IMG/VR virus record: IMGVR_UViG_3300046002_007350
Coordinates: 1-22,213 of that record
Reading direction: 5' to 3' (one strand)
DNA from: a virus
DNA: 22,213 nt
Shown: positions 1-21,802 of the stretch, piece after piece
Numbering within the stretch: the first letter of the stretch is position 1
How the letters are laid out: every line of letters begins with the position of its first letter
Notes under the pieces: model-generated
What the model saw: only the letters and a program-made list of their open reading frames with translations
What the model was told of the DNA's origin: nothing
The model's database searches: none
Made by a program: the position numbers and the translations under genes

Positions 1-1241
1 TTAACCGAGCTACATTAGCACAATCACCTACGACCAATCTTCCTGTAACGGCTTGGCAACTCGGCAACTTAGGATTAAGTGCCCAAACAATATATACAAG
101 TGGAACTATTTCACAAGTTGATTATACATTAGTTGCGGGCTTTGTGACAGATATTTTGAATCCTAATACAACTTCTATACCCGGTGGTATCTGGGATTTT
201 AATATATGGGGATATTCTAATGCTACTACTAATAATCCAACCGTATTACAAGCGGTAGTTTACATTTATGATGGAATAAATGCGCCTGTTTTACTTTCCA
301 CATCCAATGATGATACATTAACTAATAATGGAATATTTATTCAGCAGTCAATGTCGTGTTTAGTTCCACAGAAAACTGTATCATTATCTGATAGAATATA
401 TGTAGAAATTAGAGCAAAAGCAACTACCAATCATAAAACTGTAACATTGGCATTCGGAGATTATACTCCATCGCATCTACATACCACAATATCTTATGTC
501 GGAGGAACAGGGTTAGTAAAAGTTGTTGACGGGGTTACACAAACATCTGCTTCTCTTTTAGTTGACGTAGATGTTGCCTCTGCTGCAAATATAAATCAAT
601 CAAAGATTAGTGGTTTAACCACTGTTGTAGATAATGTAAATTCATCATATACCACTCTAAATACTCAAAGCGCAAATAACTTAAGCAATTATACTACTGT
701 TAATACTAATAGTGCTAACTGGAATTCAGTTTATTCTAATACCAATTCTAATAGTGCGAATAATATGTCGGTTTATTCCACTGTTAATACTAATTCAGCC
801 GTTCAATGGAATTATCAAGGAATCGACGTTAAATCATTAACTGGTAATTGGCAAAATACCTTTACTGATTTCTCTGTTCAGTCAGCTAATAACTTAAGCA
901 ATTATACTACGGTTAATTCTAATAGTGCTAACTGGTTAAGTAATTATACTAGTTTTAATACTCAGTCAGGAAACAATGCATCAGTTTATTCTTATGTTAA
1001 TAATAGTTCAGCGAATAATCTAAGTAATTATACTACTGTTAACACCTATTCTGCAACATGGAATGCAGGCGGAGGAAGCGGAATTGACACCGAAGTTAGA
1101 GCATTAACTTCAAATTGGCAACACACTTACTCAACAGTGTTGGCTAATAGCGCAACGTGGGGTACTGGTGGTAGCGGAGGAACTAATACAATAAACGTAG
1201 AAGATGCAAATGTTATTATTGCATTGTCGATGTTCATTTAA
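1..1241 (+). CDS. Repeat-rich tail fibre or adhesin protein, 5' end outside window
   Basis: The frame is open from the left window edge (first full codon at base 3) to the TAA at 1239-1241, so this is the C-terminal 412 codons of a longer protein. A GTG at 144 is in frame but sits inside continuous coding sequence and is not a convincing start. The first half looks beta-rich. From base 666 it carries 14-residue repeats of the type NSANNLSNYTTVNT, with a longer GIDVKSLTGNWQNT-type unit that recurs near the C-terminus as GIDTEVRALTSNWQHT. A Gly/Ser-rich linker precedes a short hydrophobic end. Low-complexity Asn/Ser/Thr repeats with regular hydrophobic positions are typical of trimeric phage fibre shafts. 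The exact role (fibre, collar fibre or other virion adhesin) is inferred. The stop overlaps the promoter-like octamer of the next gene. Confidence 0.7.
   Translation, partial: NRATLAQSPTTNLPVTAWQLGNLGLSAQTIYTSGTISQVDYTLVAGFVTDILNPNTTSIPGGIWDFNIWGYSNATTNNPTVLQAVVYIYDGINAPVLLSTSNDDTLTNNGIFIQQSMSCLVPQKTVSLSDRIYVEIRAKATTNHKTVTLAFGDYTPSHLHTTISYVGGTGLVKVVDGVTQTSASLLVDVDVASAANINQSKISGLTTVVDNVNSSYTTLNTQSANNLSNYTTVNTNSANWNSVYSNTNSNSANNMSVYSTVNTNSAVQWNYQGIDVKSLTGNWQNTFTDFSVQSANNLSNYTTVNSNSANWLSNYTSFNTQSGNNASVYSYVNNSSANNLSNYTTVNTYSATWNAGGGSGIDTEVRALTSNWQHTYSTVLANSATWGTGGSGGTNTINVEDANVIIALSMFI
666..1046 (+). repeat. Coding 42-bp tandem repeats of fibre shaft
   Basis: Seven 42-bp units encode the 14-residue motif (Q/N)SANxxSxYTxVNT. 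They lie at 666-707, 708-749, 750-791, 879-920, 921-962, 963-1004 and 1005-1046. An 87-bp non-canonical unit at 792-878 breaks the array. The units at 666 and 879 share a run of more than 20 identical bases, so recent duplication or recombination is plausible. Confidence 0.8.
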
Positions 1242-1248
1242 ATAAATA
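1241..1248 (+). promoter_or_regulatory. T4-late-like octamer AATAAATA
   Basis: AATAAATA begins on the last base of the preceding stop codon and ends 5 nt before the ATG at 1254. No Shine-Dalgarno sequence is visible between octamer and start. Confidence 0.5.
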
Positions 1249-1253
1249 CTTTC

Positions 1254-1604
1254 ATGCCTTCTTATTCTAAATTACCTTTATCTCAATCTGAAAACGGAAA
1301 ATCTATACTAATTTCTTTATCGGCTCTTCCGGGGAATTTAATACATACTGCGGTGAATACAACTACCGGAGCAGATGAAGTATGGTTATATGCATCTAAT
1401 ACAACAGCATCAGATAATATCACTACCATTTATTGGGGTAGTACCGCAACAAGTGATTTTTTATCACAGACTAATATCCAAGCATATGCAGGATTGACCC
1501 TACTCATTCCCGGTATTATTATTAATAATAGTTTACAGATATATGCATTAACCTCGTCTCCTAGTGCTGTTAATATCAGTGGATACATAAACAGAATTTC
1601 TTAA
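1254..1604 (+). CDS. Small beta-rich virion protein, function unknown
   Basis: A 116-aa protein starting MPSYSKLPLSQ. It has no signal peptide or membrane segment and contains alternating hydrophobic stretches such as ADEVWLYASN and TLLIPGIII, which suggest a compact beta sandwich. It lies between a fibre gene and an adhesin gene, 12 bases after the first and 2 bases before the second, so it is probably a small tail or fibre-associated structural protein. That role is inferred from context and no catalytic motif is visible. The start is supported by the AATAAATA octamer 5 nt upstream and by the tight spacing to the previous stop. Confidence 0.65.
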   Translation: MPSYSKLPLSQSENGKSILISLSALPGNLIHTAVNTTTGADEVWLYASNTTASDNITTIYWGSTATSDFLSQTNIQAYAGLTLLIPGIIINNSLQIYALTSSPSAVNISGYINRIS

Positions 1605-1606
1605 TT

Positions 1607-3961
1607 ATGAGCATTAGATACGGCCAGAAAGCAGCAACATCTGCGGATAAAATAATCTCATCCTCTTTCATGGGGTATAATAGATTTAATAATCTAAAAA
1701 AACCCATTGCGGCTGCAACTAGTACAGATCGTCCCACCGATTTGCTTGCACCACCTGTTATCTCTAGCGCAGAACAGAAGATTGCTTTGTTGGTTTTTAT
1801 ATCAAATGATTCATCTAATTTTTTAGCTTTTACCGTTGCAGGCAACTATACAGTTGATTGGGGAGATGGAACAGCACCACAAAACGTCTCATCTGGCGTC
1901 GCAGCACAATACTCCTATAATTTTGCAACATTTGATCCAACCAATTCTACTCTAACATCTGACGGTTTCAAGCAAGCATGGGTAATTATAACGCCACAAG
2001 GAGGCGCAAATATAACATCTGTAAATCTTCAGACCAGACACTCTTCCATGCTGGCGCTTAACTATTACAGTCAACCCATACACGAAATATATCTTTCTGC
2101 TCCAAATCTAACATCATTAACAATTGGGACAACAAGCGGTGCATCTACTATATATCCTAGACGTTGCAGATACATTAATTTTATCAATACAGGCACATTA
2201 ACCAGTTTTGCAAATTTACTATACAGCATGTATAGTTTGTTGCTAGTTGATGTTGGTGTAACAGCAGCAGTGACAAACATGTCAGGTATGTTTGCTTTTT
2301 GCTATAGTTTATTAGATGTTAGATTCAGTTCTAATGCAAATTTAGCAGGTTTGCTTAATGTTGCATCAATGTTTTATGATTGTCGTAGCTTATTAATAGC
2401 TCCACTATTTAATACAGCAGCAGTGACAAATATGAGCACTATGTTTTACCAATGTTATTCATTGGTGAGTGTACCGCTATATGATACCCGTAGCTGTATT
2501 AATATGAGTCAAATGTTTTATACTTGTTATAGTCTTAAAACAGTTCCAGCATTTAATACAGTTAGAGTAACAGACATGAGTAGTATGTTTTGGATTTGCA
2601 CTGGTTTGGTATCAGTACCATTATTCAATACAGTGGCTGTGACAACTATGAATAGTATGTTTTATCAATGTCATAGTTTGGAAACAGTACCATTATTTAA
2701 TACTATTGCTGTTACAACTATGAATAGTATGTTTTATCAATGCTACTCATTACAAAATGTTCCAGCTTTTAATGCAGCTAATGTATTGGCCATGAATAGT
2801 ATGTTTTTTGGCTGTTATTCGTTAATCAATGTTGAGTTGATTAATACTATTAAAGTAACAGATATGACTAGTATGTTTCAAAACTGCATTAGTTTAAAAA
2901 CAGTTCCTTTATTCAATACCATAGCTGTGACAGGAATGTCTAGTATGTTTAATTTTTGTGCCAGTTTAGTAACAGTTCCGTTATTTAATACTGGCGCTGT
3001 GACAACCATGAATAGTATGTTTTATAATTGTTTTAGTTTATCATCTGTACCTTTGTTTAATACAGCAAACGTTCTTAGTTTTGCTAGCATGTTTTATAGC
3101 TGTTATAGCTTAAGAAGCGTACCATTATTCAATACTATTAAAGTAACTTCATTTAACGGCACATTTAATAGCTGTGTCAGTTTAATGACTATTCCTGAAT
3201 TTAATACAATTGCTGCAACTGATATGACAAACATGGTTATTGCATGTTATAGCTTAACTACATTTCCCGCTATGAATTTGAATCTAGTAGGTGCTTTAAC
3301 ACTCACTAGCTGCTTTAGCTTGGCTACTTTTAATGCTACTAATTTAAGAGTCACCACATCTTTTAGCAATTGCAAATTTGCAAAAGATGCTCTTGAAACA
3401 ATCTTTACAAATTTAGGAACAGCACTTGTAGGCGCAACAAGAACCTTAACTATATCAAGTAACTGGGGTGCTCCAACACCAGTTTCACTAGCAGGCACCA
3501 CTGTAGCAGGGTCAAATGTTATAATAATGGCAAGCACCGTCGGATTATCGGCGGGTATGCAAGTTACAGGTACTAACACCAGTCTTACAACAGGCAGAGC
3601 TGTAACTTTCACAGATGCAGGAGATACTGTTAATTTAACTGCACATGGACTAAGCAACGGAGATGAAGTTTCTTTTTCAGTTATAACAACAACAACAGGT
3701 ATTGTAATTAACACAATATATTTTGTTGTTGAAGCTACTTCGGATACATTTCAAGTTGCTGCTACTCTCGGAGGGTCTGCGCTTCCATTAACAACAAACG
3801 GCTCTGGAACAGTTCGATATAATTCCACAATTGCGAGTATTATAGCTAATACCAGTGTCACAATGACTAGACCGATGGCAGGAAGTGCTTCCCAAACATT
3901 AGCGTTCCGTTTGTTAGGAACATATAAAGCATTACTTAAAGGTTTTGCAATAACAGGATAA
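1607..3961 (+). CDS. PKD-like / BspA-type leucine-rich-repeat tail adhesin
   Basis: A 784-aa protein with four visible parts. Residues about 58-150 contain a PKD-like segment with WGDG at 85-88. Residues about 206-588 are about 15 repeats, most of exactly 24 residues, of the form CxSLxxVPLFNT followed by xxVTxMxSMF. This matches the BspA-like (DUF285) leucine-rich repeat, with a Cys ladder. Residues about 630-662 and 738-765 resemble a GLSAGMxVTG small beta domain, interrupted by a segment (about 665-737) with the HGLSNGDEV pattern seen in phage tail proteins. The C-terminus, LLGTYKALLKGFAITG, is compact. PKD and BspA repeats are surface interaction modules, so host-receptor binding is the best inference. 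The gene follows the previous stop by 2 bases with no octamer or clear Shine-Dalgarno, suggesting co-transcription. Confidence 0.8.
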   Translation: MSIRYGQKAATSADKIISSSFMGYNRFNNLKKPIAAATSTDRPTDLLAPPVISSAEQKIALLVFISNDSSNFLAFTVAGNYTVDWGDGTAPQNVSSGVAAQYSYNFATFDPTNSTLTSDGFKQAWVIITPQGGANITSVNLQTRHSSMLALNYYSQPIHEIYLSAPNLTSLTIGTTSGASTIYPRRCRYINFINTGTLTSFANLLYSMYSLLLVDVGVTAAVTNMSGMFAFCYSLLDVRFSSNANLAGLLNVASMFYDCRSLLIAPLFNTAAVTNMSTMFYQCYSLVSVPLYDTRSCINMSQMFYTCYSLKTVPAFNTVRVTDMSSMFWICTGLVSVPLFNTVAVTTMNSMFYQCHSLETVPLFNTIAVTTMNSMFYQCYSLQNVPAFNAANVLAMNSMFFGCYSLINVELINTIKVTDMTSMFQNCISLKTVPLFNTIAVTGMSSMFNFCASLVTVPLFNTGAVTTMNSMFYNCFSLSSVPLFNTANVLSFASMFYSCYSLRSVPLFNTIKVTSFNGTFNSCVSLMTIPEFNTIAATDMTNMVIACYSLTTFPAMNLNLVGALTLTSCFSLATFNATNLRVTTSFSNCKFAKDALETIFTNLGTALVGATRTLTISSNWGAPTPVSLAGTTVAGSNVIIMASTVGLSAGMQVTGTNTSLTTGRAVTFTDAGDTVNLTAHGLSNGDEVSFSVITTTTGIVINTIYFVVEATSDTFQVAATLGGSALPLTTNGSGTVRYNSTIASIIANTSVTMTRPMAGSASQTLAFRLLGTYKALLKGFAITG
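2300..3370 (+). repeat. Coding 72-bp tandem repeats (BspA-like LRR)
   Basis: Each unit starts at a TGT/TGC cysteine codon. From 2381 to 3244 there are twelve units of exactly 72 bp without any indel (cysteine codons at 2381, 2453, 2525, 2597 and so on to 3245). The array begins with a longer degenerate unit at 2300 and ends with 66- and 60-bp units at 3245 and 3311. Two consecutive units share 29 identical bases (2642-2670 and 2714-2742), pointing to recent duplication or gene conversion inside the array. Confidence 0.9.
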
Positions 3962-3965
3962 TTTT

Positions 3966-4400
3966 ATGAATGATTTAGGATTTTACAAAAAAGACGGAAC
4001 ACAAATTCTCTATGCCCCAAATATCGTTGAGGGGCCAAATTATATGTTAACTATAGAGGATAAAGATAATTATTCTTATCCTGTGGATGGATGGATTTAT
4101 GCCACTTCATTAGACAATGCAATAAATATTTTCGCGGGATTACAAAATGGTTCAGGAGAGAATTGTTTTGAAGTTATTCCCGAAGGATTTTTTCTATCTA
4201 CAGATGATGTAAGTAGAAACGCTTTTACGCAAATGACTACCTTGATACAAGAAGCTTTGTCACTAGGTTTTATTGATAATAATACGCTGCAAACAATTAC
4301 AGACAGTCAGAGCAGAAAACAAACCCTGACAACTTTGAGATTTAGGCAGATTATGATTCAATATGGGTTTTATTATAAAAATCTATGGGATAATTATTAG
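3966..4400 (+). CDS. Hypothetical phage protein, 144 aa
   Basis: A soluble 144-aa acidic protein, not recognised with confidence. The N-terminal half is probably beta-rich and carries a GWIYATSLDNAINIF segment. The C-terminal half (about 75-144) is probably helical and ends in aromatic residues (YGFYYKNLWDNY). It starts 4 bases after the stop of the adhesin gene, with a GGAT sequence about 8 bases upstream that may act as a weak ribosome-binding site. It has no upstream octamer, so it is probably translated from the adhesin transcript. Context suggests a tail or fibre accessory such as a small subunit or assembly factor. This is inference only. Confidence 0.6.
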   Translation: MNDLGFYKKDGTQILYAPNIVEGPNYMLTIEDKDNYSYPVDGWIYATSLDNAINIFAGLQNGSGENCFEVIPEGFFLSTDDVSRNAFTQMTTLIQEALSLGFIDNNTLQTITDSQSRKQTLTTLRFRQIMIQYGFYYKNLWDNY

Positions 4401-4405
4401 TAGTA

Positions 4406-4413
4406 TATAAATA
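4406..4413 (+). promoter_or_regulatory. T4-late-like promoter octamer TATAAATA
   Basis: Exact match to the T4 late promoter octamer. It ends 10 nt before the ATG at 4424, the widest spacing in this window. Confidence 0.55.
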
Positions 4414-4423
4414 ATTACTATAC

Positions 4424-5059
4424 ATGGAAACATTATTAATTATTCAAGCATTAGTTGAGATTTTAGTTGGAATATCTGCACTTATAGGAGTTTTATGGGG
4501 TGGATGGAAATTAATAGTTAGCCCAATACGAAAGATACTAGATTATCAGAAAAATCATGAGACAGAGCAATTAGAAATTCGCAAAACATTAAACGAAGAG
4601 GTTTTACCTGTTATAAATTCATTAAAAAGGGAATTCTCTAAAAATGGAGGAAAGTCTATCAAGGATCAAATTAATCGTATCAGTGATGCAGTGGCTCTTG
4701 CTGAACTACGTTCTAAGATGATTGCTAGTAACCTACTAACCGCAGGTACATATGAATGTAGTCCAACCGGAGAATGTACATGGGTCAACAAAGCCCTATG
4801 TGAAATGTTTGGCCTCACATATGATGAATGTATGGGCAATGGATGGCTCACTGGTGTAGTAGGCGATGATCGTACATATGTATGGAAACAATGGAATGAA
4901 AGTATCTCTCTTGATATTCCTTATGAAGCCGAGTATCTAGTTTTAAATCATATCACCAATAAAAAAATCAAAGTACGAGCAACTGCTGTTGCCCATAAAT
5001 CAATTGATGGAAAGGTGCTGGGGTTCTATGGCACAATTATTCGTTTGGGGGATGTCTAA
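4424..5059 (+). CDS. Membrane-anchored PAS-domain protein
   Basis: A 211-aa protein in three parts. Residues about 4-32 form one hydrophobic, Gly-containing transmembrane segment (LVEILVGISALIGVLWGG) followed by the basic flank SPIRK. Residues about 35-100 are charged and helical, with an NGGKSIKDQINRI segment, and look like a coiled-coil linker. Residues about 101-211 have the layout of a PAS fold: GTYECSPTGECTWVNKALCE, then FGLTYDECMGNGWL, and a final strand pair with DGKVLGFYGTIIRL. No histidine kinase, GGDEF or other output domain follows, so it would be a stand-alone sensor or protein-binding module at a membrane. It is the last gene before a terminator. Possible roles include holin-like lysis control or membrane tethering, but none is shown by sequence. 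Confidence 0.7.
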   Translation: METLLIIQALVEILVGISALIGVLWGGWKLIVSPIRKILDYQKNHETEQLEIRKTLNEEVLPVINSLKREFSKNGGKSIKDQINRISDAVALAELRSKMIASNLLTAGTYECSPTGECTWVNKALCEMFGLTYDECMGNGWLTGVVGDDRTYVWKQWNESISLDIPYEAEYLVLNHITNKKIKVRATAVAHKSIDGKVLGFYGTIIRLGDV

Positions 5060-5089
5060 TATATTATTAAACTTTTCTATAATTATATC

Positions 5090-5112
5090 AGATACTTTTT
5101 TAGTATCTTTTT
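5090..5112 (+). terminator. Rho-independent terminator after the PAS gene
   Basis: A 7-bp stem AGATACT (5090-5096) / AGTATCT (5102-5108) encloses a TTTTT loop and is followed by a short T run. It lies 31 bases after the stop at 5059, between convergent genes. A second 6-bp hairpin, TCATCA/TGATGA (5112-5129), follows directly. It lacks a T run on either strand, so any role for the minus-strand operon is unclear. Confidence 0.65.
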
Positions 5113-5166
5113 CATCATTTTCCTGATGACCCTCTGTGTATAATACTAGTTCTAGAAAATTCATAT

Positions 5167-5463: not shown

Positions 5464-5468
5464 ATGTG

Positions 5469-5476
5469 TATTTATT
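5469..5476 (-). promoter_or_regulatory. T4-late-like octamer AATAAATA
   Basis: On the minus strand it ends 5 nt before the ATG of the 98-aa gene (5463). It overlaps the stop codon of the endonuclease gene at 5475. Confidence 0.5.
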
Positions 5477-6575
5477 ATTTTATATTAAAATTATTTAAAT
5501 AATCTTGAAATGCTCCAAAATCATTATCTAATAATATATAATAACGCTTCCCTGACAATTCCGTAAAATGTTTTTTCATTTCATTCTTCTCTGTACCCTG
5601 TTTATTATATATCCATGTTGACTTTATCTCTACGATCAAATTTAAACTTTTAATATAGAAATCTGGATAATAAAAATGTTTTGTTTTATCGGAAAAATAT
5701 TCTATTCGAGACGGTTTATAGTCAATATCATCAACATTGAATATTTTATTATCAAAGATATAATCTAAAAATTGTGGTTCATAGCCTCGTAGATATATTT
5801 TCTCGTTATTAGGTAATATATATTCTTTCCTTTTACCCGAACTGGAAAAGAATTTAGCCACATATTCTGGATTATTGAAATTATTTAATCGAACTTCTTT
5901 AGGAGTTCTTAATTTTAAATCCGTGTTCTGTAATATTTTTGTTATTTTAGGGGCAGAACAGTTATATAACTTAGCTAATTCTACAGTGTTTTTACCGTCA
6001 ATATATAATTGCTTAATTATGTCTATTTCTCCGTTGTTAAACTTTTTTAAATTATGCGTCCTATATGATACATTATTTTTTTCTAATATTAATGATATAA
6101 CGGAACTCGTGCAATTAAACATTTTTGCTATATGTTTAATTGGGTGGTTACTGTTGAAAAGTTTTATTATCTCTTCTGATTTTTCCATTAACGAATTAGG
6201 GGGGAGTTTAAGATTTTTCTCAATTTTAAATAAATTATTTTTTCGTATATATTGTTTCAATACATTAATGGTTACATTTAATTTTTCAGCAATTTGTCTA
6301 TTATACATTCCAGCATTTCGTAATGAAATATATTCATCGAGAGATATTTTGGCCCACTCGGCTTTTTTGATATGCCACTCATTTCTATCCAATTTTTTTC
6401 GAATATTATTATACTCTAATAAATTAACTATATGGACATAGCTTTTTATATTTAAAATTTTTGCTATTTGAGGTATCGGGGTTTGTTTATGATACAAGTC
6501 TATAATAAGTTTTATTTGATCTTCTTTAATTATTTTACAATTTGGATATAATTTATATTGAGGCAATAGTTGCAT
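5475..6575 (-). CDS. Freestanding homing-type endonuclease (HTH repeats + PD-(D/E)xK)
   Basis: A 366-aa protein. The N-terminal two thirds contain about four helix-turn-helix-like repeats: IPQIAKILNI (about 21-60), NRQIAEKLNV (77-115), IKHIAKMFNC (131-173) and TVELAKLYNC (181-224). These are probable sequence-specific DNA-binding modules. The C-terminal domain carries a PD-(D/E)xK nuclease core: E266 in RGYEPQFLDYI, then YYPDFYI with D305, then LIVEIKS with E316 and K318. This combination is typical of phage homing endonucleases related to very-short-patch-repair-type or Holliday-resolvase-type nucleases. The gene looks more AT-rich than its neighbours and stands alone between virion genes. 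Its own ACTAAATA octamer lies 7 nt before the start. All catalytic residues appear intact, so it may be active. Confidence 0.8.
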   Translation of the reverse strand: MQLLPQYKLYPNCKIIKEDQIKLIIDLYHKQTPIPQIAKILNIKSYVHIVNLLEYNNIRKKLDRNEWHIKKAEWAKISLDEYISLRNAGMYNRQIAEKLNVTINVLKQYIRKNNLFKIEKNLKLPPNSLMEKSEEIIKLFNSNHPIKHIAKMFNCTSSVISLILEKNNVSYRTHNLKKFNNGEIDIIKQLYIDGKNTVELAKLYNCSAPKITKILQNTDLKLRTPKEVRLNNFNNPEYVAKFFSSSGKRKEYILPNNEKIYLRGYEPQFLDYIFDNKIFNVDDIDYKPSRIEYFSDKTKHFYYPDFYIKSLNLIVEIKSTWIYNKQGTEKNEMKKHFTELSGKRYYILLDNDFGAFQDYLNNFNIK

Positions 6576-6582
6576 ATATCAA

Positions 6583-6590
6583 TATTTAGT
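6583..6590 (-). promoter_or_regulatory. T4-late-like octamer ACTAAATA
   Basis: A two-mismatch variant of TATAAATA on the minus strand, ending 7 nt before the endonuclease ATG at 6575. Confidence 0.4.
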
Positions 6591-6628
6591 GGAAAATATG
6601 AATACGTGTAACAAAAAAGGAAGGAGGG

Positions 6629-8722: not shown

Positions 8723-8728
8723 TATTAC

Positions 8729-8736
8729 TATTTATT
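8729..8736 (-). promoter_or_regulatory. T4-late-like octamer AATAAATA
   Basis: Minus-strand octamer in the 20-bp gap after the portal gene, ending 6 nt before the neck-protein ATG at 8722. Confidence 0.5.
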
Positions 8737-8742
8737 CATAAT

Positions 8743-11010
8743 TTACTTTGGTGGAGGTGGAGGAGGGGGCGCGGCTGTTTTTTCTCCACCGCCTTCTGCT
8801 TTAGGTGCTCCTGCACTTGCTGGTGATCCGCCTTCACCGCCAGTTGCTGCTGCATCACCTTCTGGTGGTGCTCCAAAATCTGGTAAACTAGTATCTCCGC
8901 CGCCTCCGCCAGTAGGAAGTCCTCCCCCACCACCGCCTCCGCCGCCAAGTCCACCTAATCCAGCATCGTCTCCACCTGCTAGAGTATCTTCCATTTCTTG
9001 TAATGCTTTTTCTCGGAAGTCTGGACCGTTTGCTTCGATTTGTGCTAGTTCCCATCTCAATGCGGCATCTTTTTGCATCAATGCTCTATTAGCTAAGATT
9101 TCTTCATCACTCATACCAAACCACATCTTCTGTGCAAAGGTTGCACTGATGAAGTCTTGAGACGCAATGTTAGTATAGTTATCTAACTTCTGTTGGAAAA
9201 TCTGCTGTTCTCTAATCTGGAAGAACTGAGTAGGTTCATTCATTTTGACATCAATATCTTCTTCTTGAATATCATATTGTTCCCACCAGCTAACGCCTTC
9301 ATCATCAATTTCTTTGATTTTTCCATCAATGAATTCTAAGGTTTTTGCGGCTGTTGTAGTTTCAGTAAGCAATCTCTTCTTACTATCTTGAATTTTATTA
9401 ACTAAGAATTCATCTGCCTCCGTAATTAATTGTGTATCTAATCCAAACAATTCTTCATTGATAAGGATTGATCTTTCATAAATTTTTTCACGTTCTTCGA
9501 CCAATGATTCTCTCATTGATTGCATTTTTTCACTTACTGCTTCTGATAGAATATCATAATAATCCCAACACTTACTGTTGAAATTATCTTTAAATACGCT
9601 GGATACTTTTAAATTTTCTTTTGCATTAGGATCATTTTTATTAGGAACCTTGATGTCATTTACTTTATATTTCTTGGCTTGATCTAATAGACGTTTCCCA
9701 CGAAGTTTCAAATGAACAATGAAGGATTTCTTAATAGCACTTGCCCATAGCTTTTGAACGGTTATAATGAATTCGGCAAAGCGTAATTCTTCACGGGTAA
9801 TATTTTCACCGTCACTGAATGCTGTTTCAGAATTCAAACGACCAAGAGGTACGTGCAATGCAGTATAAAGACACTGAACGAAATAGTTAAGAGTGTCTAA
9901 GTTATCTGCTGATTGTTTACCACCACCGACGCTTTCCACAGTAGAGCCAGAACCATCTTTTCCTTTAGGGAACCAATAGTTTTCCAACATACCTTGTGGG
10001 TCATAAACGTTTTCAATTCTACCATCTTGACCTACGGTTTTCTTTGACCAGAAACTTGCCATCATTCGTTTCATGTATTTTTCTGCTTGAGCAGCCGGAA
10101 GATTTCCTGTGTCAATATTGAATACTAATCTTTCAGGAGCACGCACTAACATGTAGATAACGGTTGCATCTTCGATAAGACTCAACTGTCTGTATGGACC
10201 TTGTGCATGTGCAAGAATAGGAATACGGAATTTCTTACCAGTAGTTTCCCATTGATCATTACAGATATAAGTAATCTGCTTATCATTAAGGAACATTGGT
10301 TGATGCTGTCTTCCAGAACTAACGGAACTCTGTGCAGTGAACTTACCCCATTGGTAAGGATAATCATCATGTTCCTTAGTACGCATAATGAAACAGTCGA
10401 TAAGTTCATTATCTAAGTCATAGTAAAGAGGGTCGATACGTTCTGCGGCAATACGGGTTGTGCCAATAATACCTAAATCGGTTTGCTTAGAAGAGACGAT
10501 ATTTTCAAAGAATAGTTCACCTTCTGTAATCCAGTCACGGGCATATTGCCAGCCTTTTTCTTCAAATTTATAAACATTAAGGAACTTCTGGAATTCTTTT
10601 TCAATCAAAGAACGGACTTCATCATTGTAATCCCCACGGAGACGACACTTAAAGATTTCTCCCTTGTCGTCTCTTTCAAACATTTCGTTACAAATTTCAC
10701 GAACAGCATTTTCCACTTTTGGATATTGAGACATGCTTCTGAAATCAATGATACGACGCTTTTTGTTTTCGGAGCTAATTCCGCTCATCAATTGATGATA
10801 GAATAGATTAGGAACACGACCACCGTTAGTAGTGTATTCCATTTGATTATCAAATTGGTTGGTAATGGATAGGCGCTGAACCTGTTTATCCTTTGTTACA
10901 CCGGGACCATTGAAAATGTTGTACTTATCATTGATTTTTTGAATATCATTATCTCCGAATAATGATTTTACATATGGTAAGTTGGATATTGTTCTGTCAA
11001 CAGTGTTCAT
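8743..11010 (-). CDS. 20: Portal protein, T4 gp20 family
   Basis: A 755-aa portal vertex protein that forms the ring for DNA packaging and tail attachment. Family-typical blocks are GPYRQLSLIEDATVIYMLVR then APERLVFNIDTGNLP (residues about 271-310), the MLENYWFPKGKDGSG segment with a following GGG turn, YFVQCLYTALHVPLGRL (about 374-392) and ENITREELRFAEFI (about 398-411). T4 gp20 is 524 aa. The excess is mostly at the C-terminus, where residues about 678-755 are low complexity: a run of nine Gly, further GGGGG, Ala/Pro/Gly stretches, and a run of seven Pro before the final Lys. The encoding bases (8743-8976) are far more GC-rich than the surroundings. The start at 11010 has a CATAAATA octamer 6 nt upstream. 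Confidence 0.93.
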   Translation of the reverse strand: MNTVDRTISNLPYVKSLFGDNDIQKINDKYNIFNGPGVTKDKQVQRLSITNQFDNQMEYTTNGGRVPNLFYHQLMSGISSENKKRRIIDFRSMSQYPKVENAVREICNEMFERDDKGEIFKCRLRGDYNDEVRSLIEKEFQKFLNVYKFEEKGWQYARDWITEGELFFENIVSSKQTDLGIIGTTRIAAERIDPLYYDLDNELIDCFIMRTKEHDDYPYQWGKFTAQSSVSSGRQHQPMFLNDKQITYICNDQWETTGKKFRIPILAHAQGPYRQLSLIEDATVIYMLVRAPERLVFNIDTGNLPAAQAEKYMKRMMASFWSKKTVGQDGRIENVYDPQGMLENYWFPKGKDGSGSTVESVGGGKQSADNLDTLNYFVQCLYTALHVPLGRLNSETAFSDGENITREELRFAEFIITVQKLWASAIKKSFIVHLKLRGKRLLDQAKKYKVNDIKVPNKNDPNAKENLKVSSVFKDNFNSKCWDYYDILSEAVSEKMQSMRESLVEEREKIYERSILINEELFGLDTQLITEADEFLVNKIQDSKKRLLTETTTAAKTLEFIDGKIKEIDDEGVSWWEQYDIQEEDIDVKMNEPTQFFQIREQQIFQQKLDNYTNIASQDFISATFAQKMWFGMSDEEILANRALMQKDAALRWELAQIEANGPDFREKALQEMEDTLAGGDDAGLGGLGGGGGGGGGLPTGGGGGDTSLPDFGAPPEGDAAATGGEGGSPASAGAPKAEGGGEKTAAPPPPPPPK

Positions 11011-11016
11011 GATAGA

Positions 11017-11024
11017 TATTTATG
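11017..11024 (-). promoter_or_regulatory. T4-late-like octamer CATAAATA
   Basis: Minus-strand octamer ending 6 nt before the portal ATG at 11010, in the 41-bp gap after the 921-aa gene. Confidence 0.55.
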
Positions 11025-11051
11025 AAAATAATATATTCAATCAATTTATAA

Positions 11052-13817: not shown

Positions 13818-13821
13818 ATAT

Positions 13822-14514
13822 TTATTTATCTACTATTTTGAATGGTGTAATGTTTTGCTGGTTGGAAGAGTAAAATTGTAATTCATTATCTACCCGTTGA
13901 ATCTTTTTAATTACATTAGTGACCCCTAAATCAACACTATATTTCGAATAATTGATTAATTCTGGTTTAGAAGTAATGTCAAAGGTTAATACATTTAATA
14001 TACGAAACTCATTTGTAACGGTAGTAATCAACACGTCTGCGGTAGTGTCACTAACGGATAATAACGGTGGATGGTATGCAGTCAATGAACCTAATACAGA
14101 ACTTGTCCATGTAGGCTTATCAGCATCTGTGGGATATTGCATGGCTATATTATGATTATTAATATCGTATTTGTAAATTTTAGGCATGAACGAATTATCC
14201 AATGCCGACACGGTGAAAAGTGTCACAGATTTTTCATTTTGATCGAAATATGCATCCACAACTCCGTTTCCAGTAGGTTGCACAACATCAGAATTCAATA
14301 ATCCGAGATTTAAAACAATTGATTTGTTTGATTGTAAAGGAAATTCTGTATAATTGTAGTTAATTTTATCAAATAAAACATGCCCATAGTAAGAATGATT
14401 AAATCCATCATCTTTACATTTAACTTCTATCATCAAGGTATCATAAAAAACCTTTAAACGAGTTATTCCATAATCGGTACTAGTGCTGGATAATGCAGAA
14501 TATATATTATACAT
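13822..14514 (-). CDS. Beta-rich virion protein, possible detached C-terminal part of the 1278-aa protein
   Basis: A 230-aa protein with no signal peptide or membrane segment. It has many short beta-type segments (RLKVFYDTLMIEVK, GHVLFDKINYNY, DVLITTVTNEFRILNVLTFDI). The LKVFYDTLMIE plus VLFDKINYNY pattern is, in my recollection, part of larger virion proteins of related phages, so this may be a detached terminal domain of the protein encoded just upstream. The gap to that gene is 11 bases and only a degenerate octamer (AGTAAATT) lies before the ATG, so it is probably co-transcribed with it. A tail or baseplate role is inferred from position. Confidence 0.6.
   Translation of the reverse strand: MYNIYSALSSTSTDYGITRLKVFYDTLMIEVKCKDDGFNHSYYGHVLFDKINYNYTEFPLQSNKSIVLNLGLLNSDVVQPTGNGVVDAYFDQNEKSVTLFTVSALDNSFMPKIYKYDINNHNIAMQYPTDADKPTWTSSVLGSLTAYHPPLLSVSDTTADVLITTVTNEFRILNVLTFDITSKPELINYSKYSVDLGVTNVIKKIQRVDNELQFYSSNQQNITPFKIVDK
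13823..13830 (-). promoter_or_regulatory. T4-late-like octamer GATAAATA, overlapping a second copy
   Basis: GATAAATA ends 5 nt before the GTG start at 13817. An overlapping AATAAATA at 13819-13826 ends 1 nt before it. The pair overlaps the stop codon of the upstream 230-aa gene. Confidence 0.5.
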
Positions 14515-14525
14515 AATAAATTTAC

Positions 14526-17500
14526 TTATCCGACTAATATTAGGAAACCATCCTCTGTGATTAATCTATAACCATCTTCTGTGACAATAATTCCTTCGGT
14601 TGCACCTGTAAAAGTTATTGCCATATACTTGTTGAAAATTTCAGCCAAATATTCTTGACCGGAATATAAAACACCATCAGGACTTTTCATAGATAAATTG
14701 CCCACAAGAGAACGACTGAATGGCTTATTGGAAGTCAAATAATACTGGTTTCCAAAAATATCAGTTTGCCATTCTAATAAATCATATGACAAATCTGTCA
14801 AATCATTTGGACCTGTAGTATAAGGATAATATGATTGCTTACCTCTTAATAAAGGTATCCCGATATTATTTTTATACTTTCTAGAATCAATCTTTGTAGG
14901 AGTTAACGGGTAATCAAACTTGTTTAAACGAACAGCACTCACCCCATTAACAGATACATTTTTTGCTTGGGTGGCATTTGATAATTCATATTTTCCAACT
15001 CCTAATTTATTAGGAATCATTAATCCTAATTGTTTATGTGACATTAGATTATCATCTATTTGTTTATAAAGGAAATTAGCGGTTTTATCATTTAATAGAT
15101 TGCTCCAAGGTTTGGCTGCTTTAGCCAATAATCCAGAAAGAGGGGAATGGTACACCGATCCCGCAGTCAAATCCACAACATTAAAATTGAGATTGAATGC
15201 ATTTCGTGCAAAGTAGTTAATGAATACAGGTATGCCTGATAGTTCAGTATTAAGAGTAATATCCGCAGGAATGTTTGTAGCAGTTACACCAGTCTTAGAG
15301 GTTTCACAGAAATCGCCACAACCACATATACTAAATTCTTGACATTCAGAATAACATTGTGGAACATATGAGTTACAGTATTTGTCCGCACGTTCGTGTA
15401 GATAATTTAATACATCAGAATATACACAATCATCTATGCTAATTTTATTCCAATGCATTTTTGGATCAAATATCTTGAGAGTGATAGGCTGTTTCCATGT
15501 GAAGCACTGATTACATTCACTTAATTCATAACGGATAACATTCTGTTCAGTTAATAGTAACGTGCTAGGAATAGGCTGAGAAAGCTGTAAGTATTCATTA
15601 ACATTACGATTATCATCGGTGATACGTTGTACAGGCTTTGTCTTGTCCCCATAAGATGCATGTGCCCAATAAGAACTATTATTTAAAAGAGGAACCTTGA
15701 TAAGGAAATTAATTGCAGGAGAACTAAACACAACTTTTTTATAAGTTATATTTGGATCATCATTAAAAACAGTAATATAATTACCACTTATAGGGGTAAT
15801 ATCTGTTCCATTATAAAGTAGTTTTTGCTTAGCAATTACATACGAATCTTTATGAGAATAGGTGTAAAATGATCCTGATTCTAGTGTCATATCACTACGT
15901 AAACCAGTATCTATCCATTCACCGTTACTGTTTTTGACTGCCTTGTACCAAGATGGCACGCTATCAATAATAGAACAATCACTTGTCTTTATGGTGGAAG
16001 ATGAGTATCCTTGGTTGATTATAAATGGCGGTAAGCTATAGTTACAGCTATCAAGATTGGTGCGGTAATAGATATAACTCTTGCCCGTTTCCAAGATAAA
16101 TGGAATATTTGATGAGCGAATCCAGCGACCCTTATTCCATCCAATATCTTTCTCAATAAGATGATCTGGTCTGAATCTAATAAGATCAGATGATTCAGTA
16201 TAGGATTTACCATCGTTACCTCTCCAATCGACTAAGTTAAATGCTTGGTCGGGTTGAGTATCAGGAACGATGAAATCAGGGAATACTTTCTTAATGCTTA
16301 GGTTATCGCCTTGATGCCCTAACGGAGAATAGTACACTGATTTACAGCTACATTTCTTCCAGCGTTCATATCTTTCTGTATCATCAACGGATAAGAAATT
16401 CACATCAATGATAGAATTGTTATGGTTTAATTGAGTATATTCGCAAGACGGATCATGGTTGAATCCAGTGAAACCCTTGACAGTATTAATATCTGTATCG
16501 GTTCCACACCATACGAAACGCACATATTCTCCTTGATCAGTACGGAATGCAATACCCGGTTGAGTAGTTCCGCTGATATAATTCCATTGGGTGTAATACT
16601 GGGTTAGTTGATTAACCCCACAAGTATAATCATTTAAGAAAATGTTCTGTGAATACTTTAGAGGTATTCCTTTTAGCCATGCTGCTTCGATTTCAGGACC
16701 ACATGGAGCCTTCAATTTAACAATCATATCAGATGTCGCAATATCTTCTCCTGCAATCGCACCGGAGAAAGATTCATTTACAGGCACAGATGAAAGGGCA
16801 ACAGTATCTCCACTTTCATATTCATAATACAAGTCACTTAAATTATCAAAGGATGTAAGTGGATAGTATATGTTAGTGTCTCCGACTACAACGGGTAATT
16901 GTGTTTGGTTAAATTTATAAAGCCATGCAATATCAATATTTCCAGTGAATACGCCATTAGGATTTTGGTCATCAATTGTGTATTGAGCGGTATTGCTTCT
17001 GATTAGAAGTTTGTCGGCTGTCTTAAATTTGTTTGAGGCATATGCACCACATTGTTCCAAAGTTAGATTCTGGATATTAACTGGCTGAACAGATGAATTG
17101 GTTACGGTTCCGCTCCAATATAATTTCTCGATTTCTTTCTGGTTATTCTGGTAACTAACTTCATTAGGGAAGAATCTCTTATCTTCCTCATAACGATCCG
17201 TTATTAGTCGTCCTGTCCATTCGCCACCTTCGGCACTCAATCCTATACCGGGATAAGGGAATTTAAATTCGCGCCCATCAGAAATAGTTGCATTCATTTC
17301 TGTGTCATATGTATAGTTTGCTGCAGACATTAACCATGCGGCTTCTGTCTTCAAGTTTCCATAATTAACAAAGATAATATCTGATGCAGAGAAATCCCCC
17401 GAACCTGTAGCATTAGACCAATCCAACGCAGATAGGGTAATGTCATTGTAACGTCCTTCTGGAATTTCATTAACATTTTCTCCACTGAACCAGTAGAAAA

Positions 17501-18362: not shown

Positions 18363-18368
18363 AACTAT

Positions 18369-18376
18369 TATTTATT
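18369..18376 (-). promoter_or_regulatory. T4-late-like octamer AATAAATA
   Basis: Minus-strand octamer in the 30-bp gap after gp6, ending 6 nt before the ATG of the 1278-aa gene. Confidence 0.5.
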
Positions 18377-18392
18377 ATATGTGCCCACCGTA

Positions 18393-20150
18393 TTAAACAA
18401 CTGTTATTCTTGATATTAGAGGAGAAGTATAAAGGAAAGGGAACTGGAATGATTCTAATGCAATATTAGTACTGAAAGAAGTTGTGTAGGTTGGATACAA
18501 AGGATTCCATAGTAACAACTGTAATCCTTCAATGGTTGTACCTACATCATTGATACGAGTGCCAATGTTAGCCACACCATCCAATGCCAAAATATCTGTA
18601 ACCAATTGGTTAACATCTATCTTCTGTCCAAGATTATTATTGATACGACTAAAGAAATTTACGATCAATGATTCCACATCCGCAGCAATAGTTGAATCGC
18701 TTTTACGAGTAATCTTATCCTTATAGATTATAATCTGTGTATTATTGATGTCATTTACTGTTGGCTGTCCTGTAACAGATGCGGCAAAATCAATTGCCAT
18801 ATAAACTGGATCAGCAATAATAACCTCGGAGGTTAGTACTTTTTGCTCATTGATAGTATTGATTATCAATGATTTCTGCTCAGGGAATATATAGGATTTA
18901 ACATTATTACGAGTCTTAGGAACACAGAAACAATAGATATTATTGAAGTTACATGCATCGGCAAAATGAACTTGATTATATAATGCACGGTATTCCAATT
19001 GAGGATTTGTCAATCCCAAGTTATAGAAATATTTGGTATAACTATTTAAATATTCGTCATTATTCATAACAGACACATCATGAAGAATATTGGCAAAGTT
19101 AGTTTTGAGGAATGTCTGGTAGGACTTAGCAGTAGTTAGACTAAACTGTGAACGATAATTAGCAGGTGCATTTTGACGAATTTGTTCAATAGTTTCTGGT
19201 TCACTGTAATATGTGCTAGGGGATGCATTATCGAGAGATACTACATTCAATGTGTTATTGTCGAGTATATTTTGAACCTTTTCATCTGTGAAAATTTCTT
19301 CAATTCTGGTAGTGTCGAAAATAGTAAGTTTTTTATTAGCAATTGCATTGATTCCAACTTCTCCACTAGGACCATCAGATGCCAAATAATAAATTCCAAT
19401 TTGAGTATTTTCCGGTAATTGCTTACCATTGATATTGTTTCCAAATTTGATTTCGTAACGACGGTTTTCACTGTAACGCACTTCGAAAACTTGATCAGCC
19501 GCATTATTAAGATATAATGATGCGGTTCTGCTCCATTTTGTCCAAATACCATTTGGCTCTTTAATATAAACGAAAATGTTAAAATGATCAACTAAGGTTG
19601 TGTCATCAGGAATTATAAAGACTGTTTCATTCGGAGTACCAGATGAAATTACAGTTGGATATTCTTGGAACGAACCTTGATACAAAATCTTAGAGTTGTT
19701 TATATCAATAATCTGTTCAGAGATAGTATCAACTAATTTGCTGAAAACTAAATCATCATTGAAGGAATATTTAATTCCGCCCAAGGTGATAGAAGAATAC
19801 CGAGGAATGGTATAAAATCCTGCCTTCAAAGTTTGGGCAGTCATTGTATAATTAACCGATGCTGTTTGAGAACCAATCGGATTATAACTTAATGCTTTAA
19901 CAATTCCATTAATAGACTTATATAATGATGTTTCAGAGAAGGTTCCATTAGAACTTGTCTTATTTAGATTATAAAGTAACAATGAGAAAACCATTGATAC
20001 TACATCATTGATAGCGGATATGTTGCTTCCTTCGAAACTCTGATCAGAGAATACTCCTGTTTGAGTTAATCTTTCACGTATTTTATCTCGAATAGAAAGT
20101 CCATCGAAAGCTAAGTAAGCATCCTTTGAAACTGGAAAATTATCATTCAT
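18393..20150 (-). CDS. 6: Baseplate wedge protein, T4 gp6 / gpJ family
   Basis: A 585-aa protein; T4 gp6 is 660 aa. The N-terminal block matches the family: FDGLSIRDKIRERL, then TGVFSDQSFEGSN and DVVSMVFSLLLYNLN (residues about 12-62). It is followed by a lead into a beta domain (ALSYNPIGSQTASVNYTMTA, about 90-109). The middle holds the gpJ-type core with RRYEIKFGNNINGKQLPEN and a following GPSGEVG turn. gp6 forms the ring that joins the wedges of the contractile-tail baseplate and works with gp25 and gp7. A gp25-type gene lies just beyond the upstream gene on the opposite strand. A TGTAAATA octamer ends 5 nt before the ATG. Confidence 0.88.
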   Translation of the reverse strand: MNDNFPVSKDAYLAFDGLSIRDKIRERLTQTGVFSDQSFEGSNISAINDVVSMVFSLLLYNLNKTSSNGTFSETSLYKSINGIVKALSYNPIGSQTASVNYTMTAQTLKAGFYTIPRYSSITLGGIKYSFNDDLVFSKLVDTISEQIIDINNSKILYQGSFQEYPTVISSGTPNETVFIIPDDTTLVDHFNIFVYIKEPNGIWTKWSRTASLYLNNAADQVFEVRYSENRRYEIKFGNNINGKQLPENTQIGIYYLASDGPSGEVGINAIANKKLTIFDTTRIEEIFTDEKVQNILDNNTLNVVSLDNASPSTYYSEPETIEQIRQNAPANYRSQFSLTTAKSYQTFLKTNFANILHDVSVMNNDEYLNSYTKYFYNLGLTNPQLEYRALYNQVHFADACNFNNIYCFCVPKTRNNVKSYIFPEQKSLIINTINEQKVLTSEVIIADPVYMAIDFAASVTGQPTVNDINNTQIIIYKDKITRKSDSTIAADVESLIVNFFSRINNNLGQKIDVNQLVTDILALDGVANIGTRINDVGTTIEGLQLLLWNPLYPTYTTSFSTNIALESFQFPFLYTSPLISRITVV

Positions 20151-20155
20151 CTAAT

Positions 20156-20163
20156 TATTTACA
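20156..20163 (-). promoter_or_regulatory. T4-late-like octamer TGTAAATA
   Basis: Variant octamer on the minus strand, ending 5 nt before the gp6 ATG at 20150, in the 24-bp gap after the 164-aa gene. Confidence 0.4.
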
Positions 20164-20174
20164 TTATAATTAGA

Positions 20175-20669
20175 TCACTTCCCTTTTCTTTTTTCCCGCT
20201 GTCCTACGACGTTTGGATGTTGTTTGCCGTCATTATACGAATTATCACCTTTGGACTGTCCTTGGGGTGTTTCCTTGCCGGGAACAGGGATTTGCATAAT
20301 ATTCTCGGGTTCAACTACACTTTTCAATACAGATATTGGCAAGGTCATAGGGGCATGCCAAGTAGCACTTAGTCCCGGTGAATAATTAACTACATCCGCC
20401 TCTTGAAAATCATTACTAGTTGGAAGAGATGCATAAACACTGTTAACTGGACGTACAGTTTTTAATGCAGACACATACAAAAGAGCCTTATCATTTGCTA
20501 ACTTTTGTAATTGAGCAAGATATGAAATTCCTTTTCTCTGAATAATATCATCTGCAATATCTTTGCGTTTGATCATGGTTGGATCAATAACCACAACAGA
20601 TTGTGGACGAATAGTGCCAAGTGCAACTGATTCTAATACACTTTCATAAAGTTCTAAAAATTTGGACAT
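20175..20669 (-). CDS. Hypothetical 164-aa protein at head of baseplate operon
   Basis: Not recognised. The N-terminus, SKFLELYESVLESVALG, is an amphipathic helix ending in VLE-S, weakly like a T4 capsid-targeting/prohead-protease site. Next comes IRPQSVVVIDPTMIKRKDIADDII (about 21-44), a compact segment with a strand and a helix. The C-terminus from about 128 is hydrophilic and probably disordered (PGKETPQGQSKGDNSYND) and ends with the basic REKRKGK. It is the first gene of the minus-strand block and shares a 34-bp divergent intergenic region with gp25. A GATAAATA octamer ends 6 nt before the ATG, and those 6 bases read AAGGAT, the only good Shine-Dalgarno-like sequence among the octamer-bearing starts. 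Confidence 0.6.
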   Translation of the reverse strand: MSKFLELYESVLESVALGTIRPQSVVVIDPTMIKRKDIADDIIQRKGISYLAQLQKLANDKALLYVSALKTVRPVNSVYASLPTSNDFQEADVVNYSPGLSATWHAPMTLPISVLKSVVEPENIMQIPVPGKETPQGQSKGDNSYNDGKQHPNVVGQREKRKGK

Positions 20670-20675
20670 ATCCTT

Positions 20676-20683
20676 TATTTATC
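20676..20683 (-). promoter_or_regulatory. T4-late-like octamer GATAAATA (left arm of divergent pair)
   Basis: Minus-strand octamer ending 6 nt before the ATG at 20669. Only 6 bp separate it from the plus-strand octamer at 20690-20697. Confidence 0.6.
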
Positions 20684-20689
20684 ATATAA

Positions 20690-20697
20690 TATAAATA
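20690..20697 (+). promoter_or_regulatory. T4-late promoter octamer TATAAATA (right arm of divergent pair)
   Basis: Exact TATAAATA ending 6 nt before the gp25 ATG at 20704. Together with 20676-20683 it would drive the plus- and minus-strand blocks in opposite directions. Confidence 0.6.
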
Positions 20698-20703
20698 ATT
20701 AAA

Positions 20704-21174
20704 ATGATAACTATTAGTAATCTGTCAAATAAAAAGAATATCAATAAACCAACTTTTGTTGATTTAAATCTTGATTTCCAAATGAACCAAGTTTCAAGCA
20801 ATAGGAAAAATGCTGATGTGGTCTTAGGTAATGATCTTATAGTTGATACAGATGATCGTGCTATTATGAATTCTATTCAGAACATTTTATCACAGAAGCG
20901 GTATCTTAATCCAGCATTCAACATAGATTTATCTAATTTTATTGGACAACCTCTCTCTGATATGGGAGCAACGGCACTTGGAAATACCATAGATAAAGGT
21001 ATTGCACTATTTGAACCGCGTGTTAAAGTACAAAAGATTTTGGTTGCAACCGATCATGATACTAACACTTACGTTATAGCTATTATTCTAGTTCTTCCTA
21101 ATTTAGGAAATAAACAATTAATTATTAACAGTTCCTTATCCAATACCGGGGATTTCATAATTCATTATAAATAA
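20704..21174 (+). CDS. 25: Baseplate wedge protein, T4 gp25 / GPW family
   Basis: A 156-aa protein, slightly longer than T4 gp25 (132 aa). Family-typical features are the N-terminal DLNLDFQMN segment, then LIVDTDDRAIMNSIQNIL (about 45-62), a short loop, the IGQPLSDMG turn (80-88) and FEPRVKVQKI (103-112), the EPR-type strand entry of gp25. Strands YVIAIILVLPN and QLIINSSL close the domain. gp25 is the lysozyme-like-fold wedge subunit next to the sheath that helps trigger sheath polymerisation; it is structural and has no enzymatic role here. It works with gp6, encoded on the opposite strand 0.5 kb away. Confidence 0.87.
   Translation: MITISNLSNKKNINKPTFVDLNLDFQMNQVSSNRKNADVVLGNDLIVDTDDRAIMNSIQNILSQKRYLNPAFNIDLSNFIGQPLSDMGATALGNTIDKGIALFEPRVKVQKILVATDHDTNTYVIAIILVLPNLGNKQLIINSSLSNTGDFIIHYK
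21166..21173 (+). promoter_or_regulatory. T4-late promoter octamer TATAAATA
   Basis: Exact octamer lying inside the last codons of gp25, ending 5 nt before the ATG at 21179. Confidence 0.55.
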
Positions 21175-21178
21175 CTAT

Positions 21179-21481
21179 ATGTTTTTCAATGATTATATCA
21201 AACTAATAACCGAATCTCTTAATTCGGGAGAAAATAAACTAATGGACGAAATTAAACGCTGCCAAAGCAAAATAATAAATTTACATAAACAGATCAATAT
21301 TCTCAACTATCAAGAAGTGTATCCCGATGGTGCAGCAGAACATTTGAAAGATTTATTAAGAAATGCAGTGGAAGATTATAAACAATTTGTTAATAGTCAC
21401 ATGGATAATATCATGCGTTCGTCCATAGGTAAAAGAATGTACATAGATTTTGCACAGGTATTAAAGACTATAAAAATATGA
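21179..21481 (+). CDS. Small helical protein with capsid-targeting-like N-terminus (paralogue A)
   Basis: A 100-aa protein, not recognised by family. The N-terminus, FFNDYIKLITESLNSG, resembles the T4 internal-protein targeting helix, with ITE-S as a possible prohead-protease cut site. The rest is probably helical (MDEIKRCQSKIINLHKQI, then EHLKDLLRNAVEDYKQFV). It aligns by eye with the next gene product: both share an ExLK then NA spacing, a following F, and a GK pair near the C-terminus. Its stop overlaps the next start (ATGA at 21478-21481), so the two are translationally coupled. An internal head protein or a small assembly factor is inferred. Confidence 0.6.
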   Translation: MFFNDYIKLITESLNSGENKLMDEIKRCQSKIINLHKQINILNYQEVYPDGAAEHLKDLLRNAVEDYKQFVNSHMDNIMRSSIGKRMYIDFAQVLKTIKI

Positions 21482-21798
21482 AATTAAATGATTTATATTT
21501 TCTAATTTCTGAATCGTCAGAGGATGATAGTGAACTTCTACGAAAAATTTCAACCTTTCATCGTAGAGTACGCGCAGCATTTACACGGGTTTATAAACTT
21601 CACCTAAATGGTGATATGTTTTCTAAGGCAGTATATAAGGAAAAACTTAAAAATGCATGGGCAAATGCCAGACAATTACAGGCCGCATATCTAGATTTCT
21701 TAGATAAGAATACTCATGCCCTTTTAATGAGCACCACCGCCACTGGAAAAATTAAAGAATTCAAAGACCGAAATCCCTTTATATTTTCTAGTAAATAA
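21478..21798 (+). CDS. Small helical protein with capsid-targeting-like N-terminus (paralogue B)
   Basis: A 106-aa protein with N-terminus MKLNDLYFLISESSED, whose ISE-S fits the (I/L)xE cleavage pattern of T4 prohead protease. It is helical and basic, with HRRVRAAFTRVYKL (about 24-37) and an EKLKNAWANARQLQAAYLDF helix. The arrangement parallels the preceding 100-aa protein and suggests an old tandem duplication. There is no octamer upstream, only TATAAAAAT, which fits translation by coupling through the 4-base overlap. The stop TAA at 21796-21798 lies inside the octamer region of the next gene. Function is unknown. Confidence 0.6.
   Translation: MKLNDLYFLISESSEDDSELLRKISTFHRRVRAAFTRVYKLHLNGDMFSKAVYKEKLKNAWANARQLQAAYLDFLDKNTHALLMSTTATGKIKEFKDRNPFIFSSK
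21790..21797 (+). promoter_or_regulatory. T4-late-like octamer AGTAAATA, overlapping AATAAATA
   Basis: AGTAAATA ends 5 nt before the GTG at 21803. An overlapping AATAAATA (21794-21801) ends 1 nt before it. This is the same doubled arrangement as before the other GTG-start gene at 13817. Confidence 0.45.
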
Positions 21799-21802
21799 AT
21801 AA

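Follow-up and report, generated by a model that had tools for sequence, protein, structure and literature searches.

Where could a ribosome bind an mRNA if the promoter lies directly in front of the start codon? The question arises for IMGVR_UViG_3300046002_007350, a viral IMG/VR record of 22,213 bases that we analyzed in full and call the window. Most of its visible start codons are preceded, at a distance of a few bases, by NNTAAATA, an octamer of the type found in T4 late promoters. If a promoter abuts the start codon, the mRNA has no space for a ribosome-binding leader, such as T4 and the majority of its cultured relatives possess. Our comparison of sequences makes it very likely that gp55-type promoters in a large clade of uncultivated T4-like phages, to which the window belongs, together with promoters of the sigma70 type, are placed such that they would yield leaderless mRNAs, and that downstream genes would be translated by coupling.

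Octamers in front of start codons

The octamer is found 5–10 nt upstream of 13 of the 17 visible starts and 5–7 nt upstream of 12. The gap is 5 nt in six genes, 6 nt in five, 7 nt in one, and 10 nt in one. Four copies read AATAAATA, three TATAAATA, and two GATAAATA, and CATAAATA, TGTAAATA, ACTAAATA, and AGTAAATA occur once each. They fit the consensus TATAAATA with a loose first base, as expected of a gp55-type late promoter. For this consensus, we relied on published T4-type late promoters (PMC1524935; PMC2984593); in T4, the octamer occupies positions -13 to -6 from the transcription start (PMC1524935). When we re-extracted the 17 starts, we recovered every octamer, gap, and exception that a first-pass annotation of this DNA had listed.

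On the plus strand, the octamers lie at 1241–1248 (AATAAATA, 5 nt from ATG 1254), 4406–4413 (TATAAATA, 10 nt from ATG 4424; the gap is 8 nt in the relatives G002 and G003), 20690–20697 (TATAAATA, 6 nt from ATG 20704 of a gp25-like gene), 21166–21173 (TATAAATA, 5 nt from ATG 21179; conserved in G002 and G003), and 21790–21797 (variant AGTAAATA, 5 nt from GTG 21803; G002 has AATAAATA). Those on the minus strand lie at 5469–5476 (AATAAATA, 5 nt from ATG 5463; conserved in G002 and G003), 6583–6590 (variant ACTAAATA, 7 nt from ATG 6575), 8729–8736 (AATAAATA, 6 nt from ATG 8722; conserved in G002, G003, and G008), 11017–11024 (CATAAATA, 6 nt from ATG 11010 of the portal gene), 13823–13830 (GATAAATA, 5 nt from GTG 13817; conserved in G002 and G003), 18369–18376 (AATAAATA, 6 nt from ATG 18362; conserved in G002 and G003), 20156–20163 (variant TGTAAATA, 5 nt from ATG 20150 of a gp6-like gene; conserved in G002, G003, and G008), and 20676–20683 (GATAAATA, 6 nt from ATG 20669; the homologous start has a gap of 6 nt in G002 and G003). 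Virion genes are among those preceded by an octamer: the portal, gp6-like, gp25-like, and gp13-like genes. The octamers of 20669 and 20704 stand back to back in the 34-nt spacer that separates these two divergent start codons, and therefore there is no room for two leaders.

When each upstream region was shuffled with its dinucleotides preserved (5000 trials), a mean of 0.24 genes and a maximum of 3 had the octamer at a gap of 5–7 nt, compared with the 12 observed. The annotation had proposed to compare starts with gene interiors: TAAATA is found at this distance before 12 of the 17 starts and before none of the 119 internal in-frame ATG codons. ATAAATA shows no enrichment when the whole window is counted (16 copies vs. 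18.4 expected); hence, the signal is wholly positional. The annotation had also noted the near absence of Shine-Dalgarno (SD) sites. By a crude test, which counts GGAG, GAGG, or AGGA within -18 to -4 as SD-like, no octamer-bearing gene in the window has such a motif and one of the four octamer-free genes has (AGGA before 3966).

Spacing and conservation across the clade

Eight related IMG/VR records, collected through the similarity of their portals, hold 887 genes. The octamer stands at a gap of 5, 6, and 7 nt in 68, 61, and 33 of these genes, with 0.65 expected per position. A scan of IMG/VR with the gp55 of the clade yielded 80 gp55-bearing loci (L105–L184), and these pooled loci also have their gap peak at 5 (95 genes) and few SD-like motifs. 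Some genomes overlap in content and the counts are not fully independent, but the pattern holds once identical upstream sequences are removed. Starts were taken from the longest open reading frame. This is wrong for a few genes and would blur the gap peak, not create it. Upstream of 181 octamers, each of 36 positions carries at most 0.10 bit, so there is no -35 element. GTG starts are more frequent at an octamer gap of 5 (29 of 159) than at gaps of 6–9 (10 of 215; P = 2.7e-5; pooled clade records and loci L105–L184), an excess that we do not rely on because GTG start calls are less certain.

The octamer is kept at a gap of 4–10 nt in all eight orthologues compared between the window and G003, and in 15 of 16 compared between G002 and G003. 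The orthologue flanks at -50 to -31 are 29–35% identical, which is near chance for A/T-rich DNA, and the few bases from octamer to start are poorly conserved as well. In front of the portal gene, for example, the octamer of G003 is AATAAATA, again 6 nt from the start, in flanks that are otherwise unrelated. Most start codons appear to be right, since protein alignments start at residue 1 for most orthologues and the codon-position bias begins just after the start codon. A few are not: the homologue of the 20669 gene in G002 and G003 starts two codons later, and the gp25-like gene of G003 starts at a later ATG. Mending these wrong starts shifts them into the 5–7 nt gap.

Early-type promoters in relatives

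In the relatives, modules of early type have no octamer. Instead, they carry TTGACA and TATAAT, separated by 16 or 17 nt, and a few bases lie between TATAAT and the start codon. Their promoters and small genes suggest that these modules are early. If an early-type promoter is defined as TTGACA with at least five of six matches, a spacer of 16–18 nt, and TATAAT with at least five of six matches, then the gap to the start codon peaks at 6 nt, with 22 genes in the pooled records compared with 0.24 expected, and 43 genes in a larger set.

A sigma70 -10 box, TATAAT, is located at -12 to -7. Because the T4 late octamer ends at -6 and TATAAT at -7, leaderless transcription predicts a gap of 5 nt for the former and 6 nt for the latter, and both are observed. 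The known geometry would thus make the first base of the start codon the transcription start (+1) for both promoter classes.

Genes without an octamer

Four window starts lack a clear octamer, and all four genes lie at most 11 nt from the preceding gene or overlap it, in agreement with the annotation. On the plus strand, the gene at 1607–3961 (BspA-like DUF285 repeats) starts 2 nt past the previous stop codon, the gene at 3966–4400 (the one with AGGA upstream) starts 4 nt past it, and the gene at 21478–21798 shares 4 nt with the previous gene. The fourth, with its ATG at 14514 on the minus strand, begins 11 nt after the previous gene. A degenerate octamer, GATAAGTA, stands 8 nt in front of it at 14523–14530; a TAAGTA variant is found at this site in the relatives, too, and it is either a weak promoter or none. 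We expect that these four genes are translated by coupling.

Across the clade, we call genes abutting if they are at most 3 nt from the preceding gene or overlap it. Only 4% of abutting genes (n = 249) have an octamer or an early promoter directly upstream, compared with 41–65% in other contexts. SD-like motifs precede 1% of promoter-bearing genes and 9% of genes without a promoter (P = 1.5e-8); among clade genes with an octamer or early promoter at a short gap, there are 2 in 314. For comparison, the background is 6–8% in coding interiors, and the proportion among T4 genes is 50%.

gp55 and companion genes

Homologues of gp55 are encoded by the relatives G009, G011, G012, and G014, in the gene order UvsW-gp55-gp47, in which UvsW is a UvsW-like helicase. 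The portals of these four are 35–39% identical to that of the window, and the clade gp55 can be aligned with gp55 of T4, S-PM2, and HTVC008M. Recoding at an in-frame TAA in the gp55 matches of G011 and G012 was considered and rejected: the frames are open (197 amino acids each), and the G012 match overruns the stop codon. The 218-kb relative G009 also encodes gp44.

A homologue of ribosomal protein S21 (bS21) is encoded by G009 as well (L187, G009:C1:190766–190903, minus strand). Such proteins might be relevant to the translation of mRNA without SD sites. As a companion gene of the whole clade, bS21 was rejected, since it was found only in G009 and G016, and in HTVC008M.

Probable leaderless mRNAs and alternative explanations

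How could expression work in these phages? The motif and the presence of gp55 in relatives suggest that a late RNA polymerase with gp55 recognizes the octamer. Given T4 geometry, transcription would begin at the start codon or one or two bases before it. The late mRNA of a first gene would then be leaderless or nearly so, and ribosomes would accept its 5'-terminal AUG or GUG without an SD site. Ribosomes are known to accept a 5'-terminal start codon on leaderless mRNA in general. Abutting or overlapping genes would be without a separate promoter and would depend on coupling or reinitiation, a minority of them with an SD site. Early genes of related phages, the sequence of which is seen in the relatives only, would have the same arrangement with host-type promoters.

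The annotation had proposed T4-late-type promoters that fire at the start codon, and our results favor this proposal. The octamer is missing at abutting genes, it is conserved between orthologues, and its gap peaks at 5 across the clade. Another argument is the presence of gp55 in relatives, and the strongest is the TTGACA/TATAAT class of early genes, whose gap is larger by one nucleotide. One could also argue, as the annotation did, that the octamer is an A/U-rich translation signal (e.g., for ribosomal protein S1, or a -3/-6 adenine site) on leadered mRNAs of an SD-poor host, with promoters further upstream. SD-like motifs are indeed rare across the clade, upstream sequences are A/T-rich, and the octamer would be present as RNA in any transcript that reads through from an upstream gene. 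Nevertheless, we consider this explanation improbable, because it predicts neither the one-nucleotide difference between the gaps nor a -35 box. The signal of early genes is another one and includes a -35 box at a distance of about 30 nt, and abutting genes, which need to be translated too, have almost no octamers. In addition, the octamer is identical to the T4 late promoter, relatives carry gp55, and conservation is poor between the octamer and the start.

It is even less probable that the octamers are late promoters of mRNAs with ordinary leaders, the true starts lying further downstream. Some longest-frame starts are indeed wrong (the homologues of 20669 in G002 and G003, and the gp25-like gene of G003), but when corrected they move into the 5–7 nt gap and not out of it, and most orthologues are similar from residue 1, with codon-position bias right after the start. 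Least credible of all is chance. In A/T-rich DNA, TAAATA occurs frequently, and at gene junctions many copies overlap a TAA stop codon; several octamers do overlap the stop codon of the upstream gene, and ATAAATA is not enriched over the window. The shuffles, which reach at most 3 of 17, and the control phages refute this explanation: regions of T4, S-PM2, and Syn9 have no such peak, and the octamer is kept in orthologues.

Some results weigh against promoters that produce leaderless mRNAs. About half of the non-abutting genes have neither promoter type at short spacing. SD-like motifs precede 14% of abutting genes, which exceeds the background of 6–8% and means that the host may use SD sites in part. 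Of the homologues that the annotation had proposed to look for, gp55 is present in relatives, but neither the window nor its three closest relatives, all of which are incomplete, yielded one. gp45 was not found in these fragments either, nor by sequence in any of the relatives, even in the 218-kb G009 (PHROG 223, Pfam PF09116, and a three-sequence profile); PF09116 does detect gp45 of T4 and HTVC008M.

If transcripts start at start codons, then nature provides in these phages a large collection of late genes with leaderless mRNAs, among them portal and baseplate genes. Initiation on such mRNAs is mostly treated as a minority route. The collection would also point to hosts in which leaderless mRNA is translated well, and it would imply that late promoters of the T4 type can be relocated as one unit. 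More speculatively, and in our view rather unlikely, a widespread T4-type clade could have shifted its whole program, early and late, to leaderless mRNA. This would free translation from SD pairing and possibly favor phage mRNA on altered ribosomes (bS21 in G009).

Origin of the window and further genes

The genes assign the window to a myovirus of the T4 superfamily. Both terminal genes are open at the ends of the record, and the window must therefore be a piece of a larger genome. Its proteins match the T4-type families PHROG 213, 219, and 261. The portal gene (8743–11010, minus strand; T4 gp20-type, PHROG 213, E = 4e-80), the baseplate wedge gene (18393–20150, minus strand; T4 gp6-type, PHROG 219, E = 4e-33), and a gp25-like baseplate wedge gene (20704–21174, plus strand; Pfam GPW_gp25 match under the curated cut-off) are all octamer-led, and a gp13-like adaptor domain is encoded as well. 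G002, a close relative of 85 kb with a portal about 90% identical to that of the window, matches PHROG 138, 207, 227, and 679 and adds a T4-type terminase, major head protein, head protease, tail tube, and gp14 and gp15 homologues. Cultured phages are distant: the best match to the window portal is about 30% identical. Profiles of gp55 and the portal matched no relatives in contigs of bacterial genomes, and tRNA genes, as a clue to the host, gave a single tRNA-Leu.

Several other genes have unusual features. The portal protein (8743–11010) has a long Gly/Pro-rich C-terminal extension past the region matched by the T4-type portal family. The open-ended first gene (3–1241) contains repeated NNLSNYTTVNTNSANW-like units and probably encodes a fiber; 1607–3961, with its long run of BspA-like (DUF285) repeats, neighbors fiber-like genes. 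The short protein encoded at 4424–5059 combines a hydrophobic N-terminal stretch with a C-terminal PAS domain, which is unusual for a phage late module. The gene at 5475–6575, with the variant octamer ACTAAATA in front, combines a DUF7487/TnsA-like nuclease domain with several helix-turn-helix motifs. It has no orthologue in G002, G003, G008, or G009 and is possibly a mobile nuclease gene.

Comparison with known systems

T4 late promoters as such are known, and so are leaderless genes; their systematic combination in a T4-type clade appears to be new, as far as open-access papers go. We found no earlier description for T4-type phages in open-access PubMed Central, which leaves subscription journals largely uncovered. 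A paper on phage AR9 mentions leaderless genes only in passing, and a methylophage paper only in the title of a reference.

As in T4, the octamer has a loose first base, stands before homologous virion genes, and is the sole promoter element, with nothing conserved upstream in either system. The gp55 homologue lies beside gp47 and UvsW in related records. The T4 late system comprises gp55, gp33, and gp45, and gp45 is not recognized in the clade. The main difference is the position: in T4, the octamer is mostly about 23–28 nt before the start codon, often with an SD site between, whereas in the clade it is at 5–7 nt with none. NATAAATA late promoters have also been described for the marine T4-like cyanophages S-PM2 and Syn9 (PMC2984593). 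These share the motif with its loose first base and have related virion proteins, but the sampled regions of T4, S-PM2, and Syn9 contain no octamer at a gap of 5–7 nt, and gaps there are mainly 20–35 nt. Among the cultured T4-superfamily controls (genome parts of 40–50 kb each, two parts for HTVC008M), gaps are mainly about 20–35 nt and SD-like motifs precede 24–57% of genes. phiM12 (Sinorhizobium), Melnitz-1 (Methylophilales), Mosig (Pelagibacter), XG4 (Pseudoalteromonas), and one single-cell marine virus are mostly leadered.

The cultured T4-superfamily phage that comes closest to the arrangement is the Pelagibacter phage HTVC008M. About ten of its sampled genes have the octamer 4–8 nt from the start, mostly at 5, and two early-type promoters are found at a gap of 6 nt. 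Unlike the window clade, which is systematic, HTVC008M is mixed, with SD-like motifs before 41–46% of sampled genes. Mosig shares the host strain of HTVC008M, yet is mostly leadered.

Outside phages, a close parallel is provided by TA-led leaderless bacterial genes, which are recognized as leaderless by a -10-type element about 10–12 nt before the start and the lack of an SD site (Zheng et al. 2011, PMC3160421). The clade resembles these genes in both respects. TA-led genes, however, are host genes with sigma70-type boxes, to which the clade would add a phage late sigma factor and whole late modules.

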